A stretch of DNA of 64,000 bases from Microbacterium sp. B35-30 (GTDB taxonomy: Bacteria; Actinomycetota; Actinomycetes; Actinomycetales; Microbacteriaceae): the NCBI RefSeq assembly GCF_010634855.1, contig NZ_MWLQ01000011.1, positions 434,001 through 498,000 of the forward strand. Direction: 5' to 3'. The first letter of the stretch is position 1. Every line of letters begins with the position of its first letter. A model generated the notes under the pieces. That model ran no database searches. It was not told where the DNA came from and was given only the letters and a program-made list of their open reading frames with translations. This document shows positions 7,685-14,622 of the stretch, one piece after another. The position numbers and the translations under genes were made by a program.

Positions 7685-8695
7685 TCAGAGTGTAGTTGGC
7701 GAAGCCGCGACGGTCGGCAGCCCCGGGTTGCGGGAGGCAGCCGCCTCGGGTCGGCCGCCGGACGTGGCGATCAGGCGCGCGAGCGCCTCCAGCGTCGCGC
7801 GGACCGCGGGCACGCGGTCGGCCCCGCGCGCCGTGACGGTGTGGATGCGCCGCTGCTCGCCGGCCGGCAGCGGCACGACCGCGACCCCCGGCAGCTGCGG
7901 GAACGACTCGATCGCCATCCTCGGCAGGGTCGCCACGCCGATGCCCTGCGCGACCAGGCCCTCGACGGCCACGAAGTTGTCGGTCTCGAAGGCGATGCGC
8001 GGTGCGAAGCCCGCGCGACCGCACAGCTCGAGCAGGTGACCGCGGCAGCGCGGGCACCCGGCGATCCAGTCCTCGTCGGCGAGCACTCGCACGTCGAGCG
8101 CGTCGGCGGTCGCCGCGGGGTGGCCGGCGGGCAGCACGGCGAGCAGCTCGTCGGCGCCGACGGTGTTCACCGCGAGCCCGCGGGCACTGGATCCGTGCGG
8201 GTCGTCGCGGTCCCCCGGGTAGCTGAAGGTGAGGGCGATGTCGGTGCGATCCTCACGTACCGCTTCGACCGCCTCGGGCGGCTCGGCCTCGACGTATGTG
8301 AGCGAGATCCCCGGATGCCGCTGGGCGAGGTCCGCGAGCAGGCGCGGGACGATCGTGGGCGACGCCGACGGAAAGGCCACCAGCCGGACGCGCGCGGCGC
8401 GCAGCCCTCGGAGCTCGGCGAGCTCGCCGGCCGCGGCATCCAGCGCCGTCGTCACGGCGGGGGCGTGCCGTGCGAGAATCCGGCCCGCGTCGGTGAGGCG
8501 GACGCTCCGCCCGACCCGTTCGACGATGGCCACGCCGAGGCGCTGCTCGAGGCGCTTGAGCTGCTGGCTGACCGCGGGCTGGCTGTAGCCGAGAGCGAGG
8601 GCGGCGCCGGTGATGGACCCCGCATCGGCGACGGCCTTCACGACCCGCAGTTCGCGCGCATCGAACGCGGGTTCGTCGTCCAGAACGTCGGTCAC
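7685..8695 (-). CDS. LysR-family transcriptional regulator
   Basis: LTTR of 336 residues. The N-terminal helix-turn-helix shows [38 protein letters not shown] (residues about 12-46, written here in two motifs: [10 protein letters not shown] and [15 protein letters not shown]). The C-terminal half is the periplasmic-binding-protein-like effector domain. The GTG at 8695 is preferred over upstream ATG codons because a TATGAT -10 lies 6 bases before it and the peptide homology begins there. It is divergent from the class V aminotransferase gene and so probably controls it and perhaps the D-amino-acid genes beyond. The effector is unknown. Confidence 0.88.
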
Positions 8696-8701
8696 CGGCC
8701 A

Positions 8702-8719
8702 ATCATAAGTCGCTGTTAT
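8702..8719. promoter_or_regulatory. LysR box overlapping the regulator's own -10
   Basis: ATAAgtcgctgTTAT (8705-8719) is a perfect interrupted palindrome of the LysR T-N11-A type. It overlaps TATGAT (minus strand, 8707-8702), the probable -10 of the lysR gene, 6 bases from its GTG. That arrangement fits negative autoregulation with activation of the divergent gene at 8777. Confidence 0.65.
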
Positions 8720-8776
8720 GTGTCGCATGGGACACCTGCCGTAGACATGAGCAATCTGCGGGTTCACTCTGGATGC

Positions 8777-9844
8777 ATGCCCGCCCTCGCCGACTCCGCC
8801 GCGCTCGCCGCCGCGCGCCGCGAGTTCGACGGTGGCCGCGACTACCTGGCCGCGTGCACGGTGGGCCTGCCCAGCCGTGCGACGCGACGCGCCGTCATCG
8901 CAGACCTGGATGCCGCTGGATCCGGCCGACCCGACCTCGCCGCATACTGCGCGGCGGTCGAGCGCTCGCGCGGACTGTTCGCGTCACTGGTCGACGTCGG
9001 CGCCGAGCGCGTCGCGATCGGCTCGCAGACCTCTGTCGCCGCGGGGCTGGTGGCATCGGCGCTGCCCCACGGGGCCGAGGTGCTCGTCCCAGACGGCGAG
9101 TTCTCGTCGATGGTGCTGCCGTTCGTGCACTCGGGCCGCGGTCTCGTGGTGCGGAGCGCTCCCCTGCGCGACCTCGCCGCACATGTCCGCCCCAGCACGG
9201 CGCTCGTCGCCTTCTCGGTCGTGCAGTCCGCCACCGGCGAGGTGGCGGATGCCGCGGCTATCGTGGCCGCCGCCGCGCAGCACGGTGCGCTCACCCTGTG
9301 CGACGCGACCCAGGCCGTCGGCTGGCTCCCGGTCGAGGCATCCGACTTCGATGCCGTCGTGTGTCACGCCTACAAGTGGCTCTGCGCGCCGCGGGGCGTG
9401 TCGTTCCTGACCGTCTCGGACAGGCTCGCCGCGCGCATGACCCCGCTCAACGCCGGGTGGTACGCCGGCGACGACCCTTGGGCGTCGTGCTACGGCCGCG
9501 AGGTCGAGCTTGCCCCCGACGCGCGCCGGTTCGATGTGTCGCCCGCCTGGCAGGCGTTCGTCGGTGCCGCACCGGCGCTCGAGCTGTTCGCGGCGCTCGA
9601 CCCGTTCGAGCTGCACGCCCACTCCACGGGTCTCGCGGCCGCGTTCCGCGCCGGGCTGGGCATCGCCGAGCCCGAGCGCGCGTCGGCGATCGTCACGTGG
9701 GACGACCTGGACGGCAGCCGGCTCGCACGGCTCACCAGCGCGGGGATCAGGGCGTCCGGACGGTCGGGGCGGGCGCGCGTCGCATTCCACGTCTTCAACG
9801 ACGAGGACGACGTCGACCTCGCGCTCGCAGCGCTCGGACACTGA
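8777..9844 (+). CDS. Class V aminotransferase-fold PLP enzyme
   Basis: PLP-dependent enzyme of 355 residues in the cysteine desulfurase/class V aminotransferase family. Visible marks are the cofactor-binding GSQTSVAAG near residue 78, the PLP aspartate in LCDATQAVGW near residue 180, and the Schiff-base lysine in CHAYKWLCAP (Lys200). There is no desulfurase catalytic-Cys loop that I can recognise, so NifS/SufS activity is unlikely. The ATG at 8777 is used; an in-frame ATG at 8747 would add ten residues. It is transcribed away from the LysR gene and followed 73 bases later by the D-amino-acid operon. The substrate is unknown, and a D-amino acid or its keto acid is a fair guess from context. 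Confidence 0.82.
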   Translation: MPALADSAALAAARREFDGGRDYLAACTVGLPSRATRRAVIADLDAAGSGRPDLAAYCAAVERSRGLFASLVDVGAERVAIGSQTSVAAGLVASALPHGAEVLVPDGEFSSMVLPFVHSGRGLVVRSAPLRDLAAHVRPSTALVAFSVVQSATGEVADAAAIVAAAAQHGALTLCDATQAVGWLPVEASDFDAVVCHAYKWLCAPRGVSFLTVSDRLAARMTPLNAGWYAGDDPWASCYGREVELAPDARRFDVSPAWQAFVGAAPALELFAALDPFELHAHSTGLAAAFRAGLGIAEPERASAIVTWDDLDGSRLARLTSAGIRASGRSGRARVAFHVFNDEDDVDLALAALGH

Positions 9845-9917: not shown

Positions 9918-11582
9918 ATGACCGCCCACCCCGACCGCACGGTGCTGCGCGGTGGAACGGTGATCGACGGAACGGGCGCACCGAGGTACGACGCCGATGT
10001 CGTGATCGTCGGTGACCGGCTCGGTCACATCGGCGAGGTCGATCCTCGAGCAGACGACCACACCGTCGACTGTCGCGGCCGCCTCGTGATGCCCGGCTTC
10101 ATCGACGCCCACGCGCACGCCGACGGCGCCGTGTTCCAGAGCGAGGTACAGCTCGCGCTGCTGCGCCAGGGCGTCACGACGGTCGTGGGCGGCCAGGACG
10201 GCGTCTCGTACGCACCCGGCTCCGGGAAGTGGGCGACCCGCTACTTCGCGGCGATCAACGGCCCGCATCCGAACTACGCCGGCGGCGGCGTCGCCGAGCT
10301 GCTGCACTCGTACGACGCCACCACGCCTGTCAACGTCGGCTACCTCGTCCCCGCAGGGACGGTGCGGCACGAGGTGATGGGAATGGACCGCGGACGAGCG
10401 GATGCCGCGCAGCTCACCCGCATGCAGCTGCTCGTGGCAGAGGGGCTCGCCGCCGGGGCGCTCGGGCTGTCGAGCGGACTGGACTACGTCCCCGGGATCT
10501 TCGCCGACACCGCCGAGCTCGCCGGGCTCTGCGCCCCGGTGGCCGCAGCGGGCGCCCTGTATGTCACGCACATGCGGGGCGGCTACGAGACGAACACGGC
10601 GGCCGGCCTCCGCGAAGTCGTCGCGATCTGCGCTCCGGGCGAGGCGCACGACGGCGTACGCGGCCACGTTTCTCACCTGCACGTGGATGCCGCCGACGCC
10701 GAGCGGCTTCTCGCCGAGGCCGCGGCATCCGGAGCCGACCTCTCGTTCGACATGTACCCGTACACACGCGGCTGCACGCTGGTGTCGATGGCGGTGCTCC
10801 CGCCGGAGTACAGCGCCCTCGACCTCGACGACGCCATCGCCCGACTGTCGGACCCGGTGCAGCGCGCGCAGCTGCGGGAGGAGTGGTTTCCCGCCGTCGC
10901 GCACAAGCCCAGCCTCGGGCCCGACTGGCCGACGATGATCCGCGTCGCCCACACCCCCGCCGAGGATTGGGCGTGGGCGGCCGGCCTCACACTGGCGGAG
11001 ATCGCTGCTCGGCGCGCCAGCTCCGTCGAGGACGCGACGCTGGACCTCCTGATCGCGGGGCGCCTCGAGGTCAGCGCGGTGATGGCGGTCCGCGAGGAGC
11101 GGTCCGTCGAGAATCTCGCGCGACTGTTCGCGCATCCCGCGCACACCGGGGGCTCGGACGGCATCTTCGTCGGCGCCGTCCCCCACCCCCGCGCGTGGGG
11201 CGCCTTCGCCCGCTTCCTCGGCACGTACGTCGGCCGGTCCTTCTCGTGGGAGGACGCGGCCGTTCACCTCTCGGCGCGCACCGCCGAGCGGTTCGGACTG
11301 CATGAGCGCGGCATCCTGCGCCCCGGTAACGTGGCCGACATCGCCGTCGTCGATCCCTCGACGGCCGCGGATGCCGCAACGTACGACGCGCCACGGCGGC
11401 CGGCCCACGGTATCGACGACGTGTTCGTCAACGGCCGGCAGGTGCTGCGCAGCGGCGAGCTCACGGGCACCCGCGCCGGCCGTGGCCTGCGCCGCTCCCC
11501 CGCTCCGCCGTCACGAACCTCCGCTGCGGCCGCCGACCCGCGACAGGCGGACAGTCAGAACCCGACGAAAGGAACCCCATGA
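9918..11582 (+). CDS. N-acyl-D-amino-acid deacylase (D-aminoacylase) family amidohydrolase
   Basis: Amidohydrolase of 554 residues that hydrolyses N-acyl-D-amino acids (or related amides) to free D-amino acids. It shows the family start LRGGTVIDGTG, the metal-binding FIDAHAHADG (about residues 58-67), the HMRGGYE loop and GHVSHLH further on. It also has the typical ending VFVNGRQVLRSGELTGTRAGR. About 25 low-complexity Ser/Ala/Pro residues follow that end and look dispensable. ACGGAGG precedes the ATG. The stop overlaps the next gene by 4 bases, so it is the first gene of a coupled three-gene operon with RidA and a DSD1-like PLP enzyme. This strongly suggests D-amino-acid catabolism; the acyl group is unknown. 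Confidence 0.85.
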   Translation: MTAHPDRTVLRGGTVIDGTGAPRYDADVVIVGDRLGHIGEVDPRADDHTVDCRGRLVMPGFIDAHAHADGAVFQSEVQLALLRQGVTTVVGGQDGVSYAPGSGKWATRYFAAINGPHPNYAGGGVAELLHSYDATTPVNVGYLVPAGTVRHEVMGMDRGRADAAQLTRMQLLVAEGLAAGALGLSSGLDYVPGIFADTAELAGLCAPVAAAGALYVTHMRGGYETNTAAGLREVVAICAPGEAHDGVRGHVSHLHVDAADAERLLAEAAASGADLSFDMYPYTRGCTLVSMAVLPPEYSALDLDDAIARLSDPVQRAQLREEWFPAVAHKPSLGPDWPTMIRVAHTPAEDWAWAAGLTLAEIAARRASSVEDATLDLLIAGRLEVSAVMAVREERSVENLARLFAHPAHTGGSDGIFVGAVPHPRAWGAFARFLGTYVGRSFSWEDAAVHLSARTAERFGLHERGILRPGNVADIAVVDPSTAADAATYDAPRRPAHGIDDVFVNGRQVLRSGELTGTRAGRGLRRSPAPPSRTSAAAADPRQADSQNPTKGTP

Positions 11583-11965
11583 CCAAGCACGCCGTGCTCA
11601 TCGAGAACGCCCCCCGACCTGCCGGGCCCTACAGCCACGGCGTGGCGGCTGCGGGCCTGCTGTTCACGGCCGGCTTCGGCCCGCAGGATCCGGCAACCGG
11701 AGAGGTCGTGGCCGGCGGCGTCTACGAGCAGACGCAGCAGGTGCTGCGCAACGTCGGCAGCGTGCTCGCCGCCAAGGGCGCCTCGTTCGACGACGTCGTG
11801 AAGGTCACCGCACACCTGCAGCACCTCAAGCGCGACTTCGCCGAGTACAACCGCGCCTACGCCGAGTTCTTCCGCGAGCCCTACCCCGTGCGCACCACCG
11901 TCGGCTCGGACCTGTACGACATCCTCGTCGAGATCGACGTCGTCGCGGTCCTGCCCGCCGAATGA
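11579..11965 (+). CDS. RidA family protein (enamine/imine deaminase)
   Basis: YjgF/YER057c/UK114 family protein of 128 residues. Such proteins hydrolyse reactive enamine/imine intermediates such as 2-aminoacrylate to keto acids and ammonia, and protect PLP enzymes. Family marks are the APRPAGPYSHGV start, FTAGFGPQDP and the active-site arginine in YPVRTTVG (about Arg104). It overlaps both neighbours by ATGA, so it is made in step with the upstream deacylase and the downstream PLP enzyme, which is just where an enamine-forming dehydratase would need it. Confidence 0.92.
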   Translation: MTKHAVLIENAPRPAGPYSHGVAAAGLLFTAGFGPQDPATGEVVAGGVYEQTQQVLRNVGSVLAAKGASFDDVVKVTAHLQHLKRDFAEYNRAYAEFFREPYPVRTTVGSDLYDILVEIDVVAVLPAE

Positions 11966-13284
11966 CTGCCGCCGCGCACCGGGGTTCGGCGAGCCGCCTG
12001 CTCGGGGCAGGCGACAAGGGGCTCCCCGCCGACGCCGCGGGCCTCACCGTCGCCGAGTTCCTGGCCCGAAAACCCTCTCTGACCGACCTCTGGACCCCTC
12101 TCCTCGTGATCGACGACGGCGCGCTCGATGACAACATCGCCTTCCTCGCCGGGTGGGTGGCCGAGCGCGGACTCGAGTTGATGCCGCACGGCAAGACCAC
12201 GATGGCGCCGCAGCTGTGGTGGCGGCAGCTCGACGCGGGCGCGACGGGCATCACGGTGGCGACGCCGTCGCAGCTGCGCGTGGCCGTGGATGCCGGCATC
12301 CCCGCCGTCATGCTCGCCAACCAGCTGGTGCAGCCGGACGCCATCCGCTGGACCGCGGCGGCCGTGGCGGCGGGCACCCGCGTGTGGAGCTGGGTCGACG
12401 ACGTCGCGGGCATCGACGCCATCGAGCACGCGCTGGGCGACTCGGCGGCGCAGCCGCTCGAGGTGCTGGTCGACGTCGGGCGCCCGGGCGGCCGTACCGG
12501 CGCCCGCTCGCTGGAGGCGGCGGTCGCCGTCGCGCGGCGTGCCGCTGCGTCGCCCGCCGTCCGGCTCGCGGGTGTGACCGGCTACGAGGGCGCCGTCGCC
12601 CACGGCCGCGACGCCGAGGCACTGGCGTCCGCGCGCGCCTACGTCGACGAGCTTCTCGCCGTCCACCAGGCGCTGACACCGCTGTACGACGGCCGCGACG
12701 TGCTGGTGTCGGCCGGTGGCAGCGCGTACCCCGACGTCGTCGGCGCCGCGTTCGCCGCGGCTGGGCCCACGCGCCGAGAGGCTCCGCGCAACGCGCCAGC
12801 GGTGCGTGGAGTAGGCGTGGGGACCGTCGGCGGCGACCGCACGCGGTTCGTGCTGCGGTCCGGTGCGTACCTCGTGCACGACCACGGCTACTACCGGCAG
12901 AACTCGCCGTTCGACGGTGCAGGGCTGCGCCCCGCGGCGCGGGGGCTTGCCCGGGTGGTGTCGCGCCTCGATGCGAGCACCGCGATCGTCGATGCGGGCA
13001 AGCGCGACTTCCCGTTCGATGAGGGGCTGCCCGAGCCCCTGTACGCGATCGGCGCCGCGGGCGAGCGGATGCCGCTTCCCGGCGGGGTGACGACGAAGCT
13101 CAGCGATCAGCACGGCTTCGTGCGCATCGCGGGCGACTCACCGCTTGGGGTAGGCGACCTCGTCGTGTTCGGACTCTCCCACCCGTGCACGATGTTCGAC
13201 AAGTGGCGCCTGGTGCCCGTCGTGGACACGCTGGACGACCCGCTGAACGCGATCGTCACCGACCTCGTCGAGACGCGGTTCTGA
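11962..13284 (+). CDS. DSD1/D-threonine-aldolase-type PLP enzyme, probable D-amino-acid dehydratase/deaminase
   Basis: Fold-III (alanine-racemase-type) PLP enzyme of 440 residues. The Schiff-base lysine is in MPHGKTT (Lys78). Near the C-terminus SHPCTMFDKW supplies the zinc-binding pair His407 and Cys409 seen in D-serine dehydratase DSD1 and D-threonine aldolase. The lengthy N-terminal part and the metal site fit the family often named amino acid deaminase. It would convert a D-hydroxy-amino acid (such as D-serine or D-threonine) to a keto acid through an enamine. The ATG overlaps the RidA stop by 4 bases. Reaction type is inferred from motifs and operon, and substrate specificity is open. 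Confidence 0.82.
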   Translation: MTAAAHRGSASRLLGAGDKGLPADAAGLTVAEFLARKPSLTDLWTPLLVIDDGALDDNIAFLAGWVAERGLELMPHGKTTMAPQLWWRQLDAGATGITVATPSQLRVAVDAGIPAVMLANQLVQPDAIRWTAAAVAAGTRVWSWVDDVAGIDAIEHALGDSAAQPLEVLVDVGRPGGRTGARSLEAAVAVARRAAASPAVRLAGVTGYEGAVAHGRDAEALASARAYVDELLAVHQALTPLYDGRDVLVSAGGSAYPDVVGAAFAAAGPTRREAPRNAPAVRGVGVGTVGGDRTRFVLRSGAYLVHDHGYYRQNSPFDGAGLRPAARGLARVVSRLDASTAIVDAGKRDFPFDEGLPEPLYAIGAAGERMPLPGGVTTKLSDQHGFVRIAGDSPLGVGDLVVFGLSHPCTMFDKWRLVPVVDTLDDPLNAIVTDLVETRF

Positions 13285-13287
13285 GCC

Positions 13288-14622
13288 TCAGCCCGGCTGA
13301 CCGGCGGTGCGGGCGCGGGAGGCGCGCCAGCCGAGCGGGGCGAGCAGCACCGAGGCGGCGACGAGCACCAGCACGACCAGGGCGAGACCGCCGTAGCCGA
13401 TCCAGCCGAGCACGGCGCCGGCGGCGATCGCGCCGAGACCACCCACGATGCTCATCGTGAAGTCGCTGAAGCCCTGGCGTCGCGTGCGCAGCTCTTCGGA
13501 GGACGACTCGGTGAGCAGCGTCGAGCCCGCCACCGTCGACGCGCTCCATCCCAGGCCCAGCAGCACGAGCGCGACGGTCACCGCCGTCGTCGACGTCTGG
13601 CCGAACGAGGCGGTGAGCAGCGCCGCGACGAGGAGCACCTGACCGACCAGGATCGTCGGCACACGCCCGACCTTGTCGGAGAGGATGCCGAAGACCGGCG
13701 AGAGCATGTACATGCCGGCGATGTGCAGACTGATCGTCAAGCCGATGATCGACAGGGTGGCAGCCTCGGACGCCCCGTGGGTCAGATGCGCCAGATGCAC
13801 GGGCGTCATCGCCATCACCGACACCATCGTGCCGTGGGCGGCGGCCACGGCGAAGATCGCGTACCGAGCCGCGACCGGGCGATCGGCCTTCGCGATCACG
13901 CGGCTGCCTGACCGCGCCGAGGCGACCACCCGCTGCGCCAGAAGCAGCGGGTCGGGTCGCATCGCCACGAGGTACAGCACGATCGCGAGCCCCTGCGCGA
14001 CGAGGGTGAACAGATAGGCCCCGGTCAGCGGGGGCATGCCGATCGCACCGCCGAGCACCTCGCCGGGCCCGGTGAGATTCGGTCCGAGAACGGCGCCCAC
14101 CGTGGTCGCCCACACGACGATCGAGAGATCGCGGCCGCGCGAGGCATCCGTCGCCAGATCCGCCGCGGCGAAGCGCGACTGCAGATTGGCCGCCTGGCCC
14201 GCCCCGATGATGAAGAAGCCGACGAGCAGCAGCGGGAACGCGGCCAGGGCGACAGCGACGATCACCAGTCCGACGCCGACGAGGGCGACCGCCATTCCGG
14301 TGGTGAGCGACAGTCGTCGGCCATGCCGGCGCGCGATCGCCGCCAGTGGCACCGCCGTCAGCGCGGTGCCGAAGGTCACGGCGGCCGCGGCGAGTCCCGA
14401 GAAGGCGTCCTCCCCCGAGATGTCTGCCGCGAGCACCGCACCGAGCGACAGCGTCGCACCGAAGGCAAGCCCGCCGAGTACCTGGCCGAGCGAGAGCACC
14501 CAGACGGTGCGCCGCTGAACCGCGGCCACCTCTTCGGCGGTGGTACCGCTGTCGGTCCTCACACCGACGGCGTCGGCGTGAGGTGCGCTGCCATCCTCGT
14601 CAGGCGCCACGGGCCCTGTCAC
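13288..14622 (-). CDS. MFS transporter
   Basis: Major facilitator superfamily membrane protein of 444 residues with about 12 helices. The loop 2-3 signature is RRHGRR (near residue 98). The hydrophilic first 35 residues are probably cytoplasmic. The GTG start falls inside a 15-base duplicated segment. It lies 15 bases after the FAH-family gene on the same strand and converges on the D-amino-acid operon, 3 bases apart at the ends. The substrate cannot be told. It has the shape of the small-molecule/drug efflux MFS group. Confidence 0.82.
   Translation of the reverse strand: MTGPVAPDEDGSAPHADAVGVRTDSGTTAEEVAAVQRRTVWVLSLGQVLGGLAFGATLSLGAVLAADISGEDAFSGLAAAAVTFGTALTAVPLAAIARRHGRRLSLTTGMAVALVGVGLVIVAVALAAFPLLLVGFFIIGAGQAANLQSRFAAADLATDASRGRDLSIVVWATTVGAVLGPNLTGPGEVLGGAIGMPPLTGAYLFTLVAQGLAIVLYLVAMRPDPLLLAQRVVASARSGSRVIAKADRPVAARYAIFAVAAAHGTMVSVMAMTPVHLAHLTHGASEAATLSIIGLTISLHIAGMYMLSPVFGILSDKVGRVPTILVGQVLLVAALLTASFGQTSTTAVTVALVLLGLGWSASTVAGSTLLTESSSEELRTRRQGFSDFTMSIVGGLGAIAAGAVLGWIGYGGLALVVLVLVAASVLLAPLGWRASRARTAGQPG

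Follow-up and report, generated by a model that had tools for sequence, protein, structure and literature searches.

The closest described counterpart of the locus reported here is the oxidative chitin pathway of Pseudoalteromonas prydzensis, which degrades N-acetyl-D-glucosaminic acid (GlcNAc1A) and has ongB-ongD-ongC as its core (PMC9537276). According to the available portions of that paper, OngB deacetylates GlcNAc1A, OngC converts D-glucosaminate (GlcN1A) to 2-keto-3-deoxygluconate (KDG) and ammonia, and a KDG kinase acts next. Growth on GlcNAc1A requires each of the three genes, and OngD is an essential RidA protein whose role is given as unknown. The same portions describe a 2022 survey in which the pathway was complete in Gammaproteobacteria and a single betaproteobacterium. 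A structure of OngB with its Cys97/His222/His252 site has been reported, and in the available part of that report the three OngBs assayed were active on GlcNAc1A only (PMC12017989). We identified a comparable set of three genes, encoding a D-aminoacylase-family amidohydrolase (Daa), a RidA protein and a DSD1-like enzyme (DSD), in a 64,000-nucleotide stretch of Microbacterium sp. B35-30 (contig NZ_MWLQ01000011.1, positions 434,001 to 498,000), referred to here as the window. The first-pass annotation of this DNA knew of no study of the arrangement. However, such a trio is the core described for GlcNAc1A in the accessible text of the two papers above. Among the matches listed in term searches of the open-access literature, which leave subscription papers mostly outside, we recognized no paper describing an actinobacterial version. 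Actinobacterial names were not found in the accessible text of PMC12017989, and that of a Rid family survey (PMC4433059) does not mention D-aminoacylase, deacylase, serine dehydratase or threonine aldolase.

The gene for Daa (554 aa) occupies positions 9918–11582 of the forward strand, with an ATG at 9918. Its product matches Pfam Amidohydro_3 (89.7 bits), and its best solved relatives are the D-aminoacylase 1m7j and, as the next distinct enzyme, the N-acyl-D-glutamate deacylase 3gip. RidA (128 aa; 11579–11965, forward strand) matches PF01042 with 103.4 bits and scores 102.2 bits against NCBIfam TIGR00004, slightly below the cut-off of 106.25. The third gene (11962–13284, forward strand) encodes a 440-residue fold-type III enzyme dependent on pyridoxal phosphate (PLP) and zinc, which matches PF14031 (63.2 bits) and has as its closest solved relative 3gwq, titled 'D-serine deaminase'. 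Both joints between the genes are four-base ATGA overlaps. The open reading frames (ORFs), the joints and the family searches thus confirm the three overlapping genes that were first annotated as a deacylase, a RidA and a DSD1-like enzyme, and the residues then assigned to PLP and zinc are also correct. Lys78 is kept in all 51 aligned DSD homologues and the His407/Cys409 pair of the SHPC motif in 50 of them, the exception being a truncated row. With PF01042 and the catalytic Arg105, RidA has the features of an active Rid protein, and Arg105, Asn91 and Glu118 are kept in 46/46 aligned homologues. DSD shares PF14031, the PLP lysine and the zinc His/Cys pair with the DSD1 family (3gwq and the D-threonine aldolases 7dib and 4v15). 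Unlike that family at large, the enzymes of its clade are often accompanied by a PfkB kinase resembling KDG kinases.

The trio is probably an accessory catabolic cassette that acts on an N-acetylated amino-sugar acid. GlcNAc1A is the most likely substrate, and the trio would work like the ong core. The pathway, described from marine gammaproteobacteria, would then exist in a modified version among many actinobacteria. In the proposed pathway, Daa would deacetylate GlcNAc1A to D-glucosaminate and acetate. DSD, with PLP on Lys78 and zinc on His407/Cys409, would then eliminate the C3 hydroxyl, as expected from the chemistry of its family, and the enamine formed would pass to an imine. RidA would hydrolyze the enamine or imine to KDG and ammonia, sparing PLP enzymes, and KDG may be taken into metabolism by two enzymes encoded elsewhere in the genome next to kduD, a KDG-kinase-like PfkB and a 2-keto-3-deoxy-6-phosphogluconate (KDPG) aldolase. 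As GlcNAc1A is an N-acetylated, beta-hydroxy D-amino acid, this substrate would explain the use of D-amino-acid enzyme families. The first-pass annotation put forward deacylation followed by PLP-dependent dehydration via an enamine, with RidA acting beside these steps; this logic is most likely right, and the trio recurs as a unit. The substrate named in that annotation fares less well, since the neighbors of related sets point to an N-acetyl-hexosaminate and not to an N-acyl-D-amino acid.

The evidence for the substrate comes from the gene neighborhoods of relatives. A DSD homologue is present in 21 of 58 related genomes, and within the genus three contexts can be told apart in stretches of at most 20 kb. 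In the first, that of the window and of two further loci (L032, L037), the order is LysR, a class V aminotransferase-fold gene (AT5), Daa, RidA, DSD and a major facilitator superfamily (MFS) gene. In the second (L033 with L149, L034, L035, L046), PfkB and KDPG aldolase accompany DSD, and Daa and RidA are also present except in L034. In the third, five genomes (L042, L044, L045, L049, L050) encode proteins of about 1066–1090 aa in which Daa is fused to a glycoside hydrolase family 20 (GH20) hexosaminidase, beside DSD and RidA and with ROK and NagB genes near. The fusion was identified from Pfam domains in L050 and from ORF extent and GH20 matches in all five loci. PfkB is linked in L033–L036, L038 and L046, and the three cluster kinases tested all score best in the NCBIfam models for KDG and 2-keto-3-deoxygalactonate (KDGal) kinases, below cut-off. 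Outside the genus, Tsukamurella tyrosinosolvens is annotated with RidA, IclR and a sugar kinase, followed by DSD, D-aminoacylase, KDPG aldolase and a gluconate symporter.

As loci L032–L051 were located through DSD, its presence there is by choice, and association was counted only in a genome scan centered on Daa. At least 594 stretches matched. Relatives were encoded in 182 of them, of which the best 80 were retained, comprising 26 loci in the window's Daa clade and 54 others. DSD was found at 20 of the 26 loci within the clade vs 3 of the 54 outside it, RidA at 21 vs 2, KDG-kinase-like PfkB at 16 vs none, GntP permease at 12 vs none, and IclR at 15 vs 3. KDPG aldolase (Eda) and GH20 were each found at a minimum of 4/26 loci, lower bounds from one query each, compared with none and one (a weak fragment) of the 54; two further Eda queries again gave 4/26. 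Seven of the outside loci have no row in the tree, and dropping them (26 vs 47) leaves the counts for DSD, RidA, PfkB, Eda and GH20 unchanged. Because the Daa loci are related to one another, Fisher p values for these comparisons overstate independence. The presence of KDG-kinase-like PfkB, KDPG aldolase, GntP, GH20 and NagB near related sets argues for an N-acetyl-hexosaminate rather than N-acyl-D-serine or N-acyl-D-threonine. At one locus of Microbacterium sp. NIBRBAC000506063 (L176, 5974–8225), the annotation splits PfkB into two pieces and the DSD match extends over two annotated genes, which may reflect sequencing errors or decay.

Daa comes from a different clade than OngB. The tree was built with a quick method, with support from the Shimodaira–Hasegawa-like approximate likelihood ratio test (SH-aLRT) only, from 95 of 107 collected ORFs; four that were no longer than 350 aa were left out, as were eight rows that were truncated or aberrant. 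The window protein falls in a clade of 42 rows (SH-aLRT 94) that includes the 26 loci counted above, and its closest kin outside its own locus type is L046, from a locus with PfkB and KDPG aldolase (a set of four rows, SH-aLRT 98). By alignment, Daa has the HxH motif (65/67), His218, His250, His253, the catalytic Asp414 and Arg425. It thus resembles the D-aminoacylases of Alcaligenes faecalis (1m7j) and Bordetella (3gip) in fold, HxH, the two zinc histidines, catalytic aspartate and arginine, and it has the fold, HxH and catalytic aspartate of a subtype V amidohydrolase. It lacks the Cys/His/His metal site of that subtype, as Asp94 takes the place of the bridging zinc cysteine (in GNCG of OngB-type sequences and D-aminoacylases), with aspartate in 42/42 rows of the clade. 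A histidine stands three residues ahead of the second zinc histidine in 41 of the 42 rows (L062 differs), and the lysine of the SHHK motif of D-aminoacylases is His255. The fold itself did not separate substrates: D-aminoacylases and P. prydzensis OngB (PpOngB) match the AlphaFold model (mean pLDDT 88.9) equally, with VIA Z of 50–51.

Asp-type relatives (GQDG or GIDG) with no DSD found nearby occur in Chloroflexi and other phyla (L074, L079, L081–L084, L088, L119 and others). The occurrence of the aspartate in distant relatives without DSD indicates that it marks a deep branch and not the pathway. A genome search found no DSD relative in the genomes behind L096 and L126.

The window-type DSD falls in an eight-row fork (support 80/91, with no resolution inside it) together with its nearest kin beyond the window's locus type, L033–L035, which have PfkB and Eda, and with L052 and L176, the last a truncated row. 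The fork is nested in a clade of 44 rows that also holds OngC-like enzymes of Vibrio and Klebsiella. RidA lies in a ten-row clade (99/93) with L061, its nearest kin beyond that locus type, and other RidAs of PfkB/Eda clusters, among others, and the gammaproteobacterial RidAs form a separate clade (100/100). Sets of the Azospirillum type (L086, L121, L183) have the order Daa-RidA-DSD as in the window, but their Daa is of the Cys type and their DSD falls outside the 44-row clade; the L183 set is accompanied by an oligopeptide ABC transporter. These sets appear to be a third, separate assembly of the trio with non-orthologous Daa and DSD. On balance, we favor the view that Actinobacteria own a pathway for GlcNAc1A from oxidized chitin, with a separate Asp/His/His clade of deacetylases, in some species fused to a hexosaminidase that would release the substrate, and that the trio has been assembled at least three separate times.

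The genome of the window encodes GH20 and, on another contig (G000:C1), the KDG-kinase-like PfkB and KDPG aldolase beside KduD. KduD passes the curated cut-off of TIGR01832, the aldolase passes the Pfam cut-off and falls just below that of NCBIfam eda, and the kinase has its best matches among KDG/KDGal kinase models, at scores far below cut-off. We also compared DSD with family AA10 lytic polysaccharide monooxygenases (LPMOs) in a class-wide sample of 394 genomes, with a DSD threshold of E<=1e-20 and the DSD, AA10 and GH92 counts taken as referring to the same 394. AA10 LPMOs occur in 120 of these genomes: 84 have both, 59 DSD alone, 36 an LPMO alone and 215 neither. By genus the corresponding counts are 24, 20, 16 and 77 (p 1.5e-5), so that DSD is present in 24/40 genera with LPMO vs 20/97 other genera. 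Phylogeny was handled only by collapsing to genera or by omitting the largest genus. As a control, GH92 showed a weaker association with DSD (odds ratio by genus 2.8, p 0.018). DSD and LPMO remain linked in both GH92-positive and GH92-negative genomes. RhaA, with 14 weak matches in the 394 genomes, was dropped as a control in favor of GH92.

Several observations weigh against assigning GlcNAc1A to the trio. The substrate is deduced from the neighborhoods of relatives and not from the window's own, and neither the window copy nor the two others of its type (L032, L037) adjoins any sugar marker. The PfkB scores lie far under the KDG-kinase cut-off. At the positions of OngB Cys97, His222 and His252, Daa has Asp94, His218 and His253 by alignment, and the Ser290–Ser292 triad is missing (RGCTLVSM, vs ASSSTLD in Klebsiella and Vibrio). 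The 44-row DSD clade also contains DSDs of Pantoea and K. variicola that adjoin amino-acid ABC transporters and have no annotated D-aminoacylase in their vicinity. Neither an LPMO (PF03067) nor GntP was found in the window genome, which is DSD-positive and LPMO-negative, and LPMO was absent from all 35 same-genus genomes in one set, although it occurs in 3 of the 12 same-genus genomes of the class-wide sample. The association of GH92 with DSD implies that part of the link between DSD and LPMO is background, and the p values assume independence of loci or genera that are in fact related. The window strain may scavenge the products of other chitin degraders.

Comparison with ong shows both likeness and difference. 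As in ong, genes for a deacetylase of the D-aminoacylase family, a DSD1-like PLP deaminase and RidA are linked in the window, and relatives of the set add KDG-kinase-like PfkB, KDPG aldolase or GH20. However, the window copy consists of three genes only, no KDG kinase is linked to it in the window neighborhood, and no RpiR-type OngR stands beside it, the adjoining regulator being a LysR backbone gene. Its RidA comes from another clade. Regulators in its relatives are of the IclR or ROK type and the permease is GntP, in contrast to the RpiR regulator and SSS transporter of ong. We reject Daa as an orthologue of OngB in view of the different tree clade, the aspartate in place of Cys97 and the lack of the serine triad. 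Because the OngB metal site, the triad, a linked kinase, RpiR and LPMO are all missing, we do not class the trio as a member of ong.

In an ong-like cluster of Klebsiella pneumoniae (NZ_OP378649; L180, 7286–8725), 479 residues of the deacylase are identical to PDB 9g5m/9gv8, titled N-acyl-D-amino-acid deacylase. This protein has the OngB serine triad and scores 549 bits against PpOngB vs 469 against the A. faecalis D-aminoacylase, so that its true substrate may be GlcNAc1A. No paper on this structure was found in the open-access literature.

Degradation of N-acyl-D-amino acids such as N-acetyl-D-serine or N-acetyl-D-threonine to keto acids, in which RidA would remove 2-aminoacrylate or a homologue, is the alternative that survives best, and we consider it unlikely. 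D-aminoacylases are the closest characterized solved relatives of Daa by sequence, and OngC deaminates D-Ser and D-Thr as well, according to the accessible text of PMC9537276. The gene order and oligopeptide transporter of the Azospirillum set also fit such a role, as do the DSD and RidA genes beside amino-acid transporters in Pantoea and K. variicola. However, the Azospirillum set is not orthologous, as described above, and among the best 80 of 182 relatives it is the window's Daa clade that is linked to PfkB, GntP, GH20 and Eda. The restriction of the three assayed OngBs to GlcNAc1A also speaks against this alternative, though they are not orthologues of Daa.

In L034 and L038, DSD occurs with KDG-kinase-like PfkB and KDPG aldolase and with no Daa in the stretch viewed, which for L038 stops at the contig end. 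These sets are candidates for a pathway of free D-glucosaminate. They would also agree with a second alternative, that the trio acts on free D-glucosaminate or another N-acetyl-hexosaminate (N-acetyl-D-galactosaminate or N-acetyl-D-mannosaminate) to give KDG or KDGal. Annotated genes of the Klebsiella ong-like cluster include KDGal kinase and 2-keto-3-deoxy-6-phosphogalactonate aldolase, and the models in which the cluster kinases score best are bifunctional for KDG and KDGal. We regard this alternative as quite doubtful, since the NagB and GH20 partners and the co-occurrence with LPMO favor the gluco form, although GH20 enzymes also cleave GalNAc glycosides.

Two conserved chromosomal genes flank the cassette, which is inserted between them. 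Upstream lie the LysR regulator (7685–8767, reverse strand), whose true start may fall within the ORF, and, divergent from it, AT5 (8777–9844, forward strand; PF00266); the MFS transporter (13288–14622, reverse strand) is convergent with the trio. The first-pass annotation suggested that the aminotransferase and LysR extend the pathway. Both are indeed directly upstream, AT5 on the same strand with a gap of 73 bases, and expression of the trio from the LysR/AT5 region could still occur. However, AT5 orthologues (at least 63% identity to that of the window) occur in 15 same-genus genomes, window included, and in 12 of these the trio is missing at the AT5 site. Of the other 14 loci compared, two have the trio, 11 do not and one (L172) keeps only LysR-AT5. 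The 11 trio-less backbones read gltX-LysR-AT5 facing MFS-FAH-ilvE-leuB, and in nine of them the AT5 and MFS matches are less than 500 bases apart. With three genomes carrying the trio and 11 others the backbone without it, we read the trio as an insertion at a permissive site. Membership of AT5 and LysR in the pathway is not supported by their conservation, and we rejected it as very improbable.

A different insert of about 2.8 kb lies between AT5 and MFS at the trio's site in L163 (7129–9879) and L164, suggesting an insertion hotspot. Within the genus AT5 is conserved next to LysR, and its relatives of solved structure are not close (best E 9e-8).

Chance co-location of the three genes was rejected, since the same three families occur together in other genomes, which makes the association more than chance and removes a circumstance that the first-pass annotation had raised against itself, that of a trio confined to this strain.

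Actinobacteria are major degraders of chitin in soil. If the trio does act on GlcNAc1A, it would fill a gap, since the published survey, in its available portions, assigned the complete pathway to Gammaproteobacteria and a single betaproteobacterium (PMC9537276). It would also give a predicted function to genes annotated as 'D-aminoacylase' and 'alanine racemase', and provide a second natural system for learning why RidA is essential. If there have been at least three separate assemblies, RidA would be a recurrent partner of the dehydration of amino acids and amino-sugar acids.

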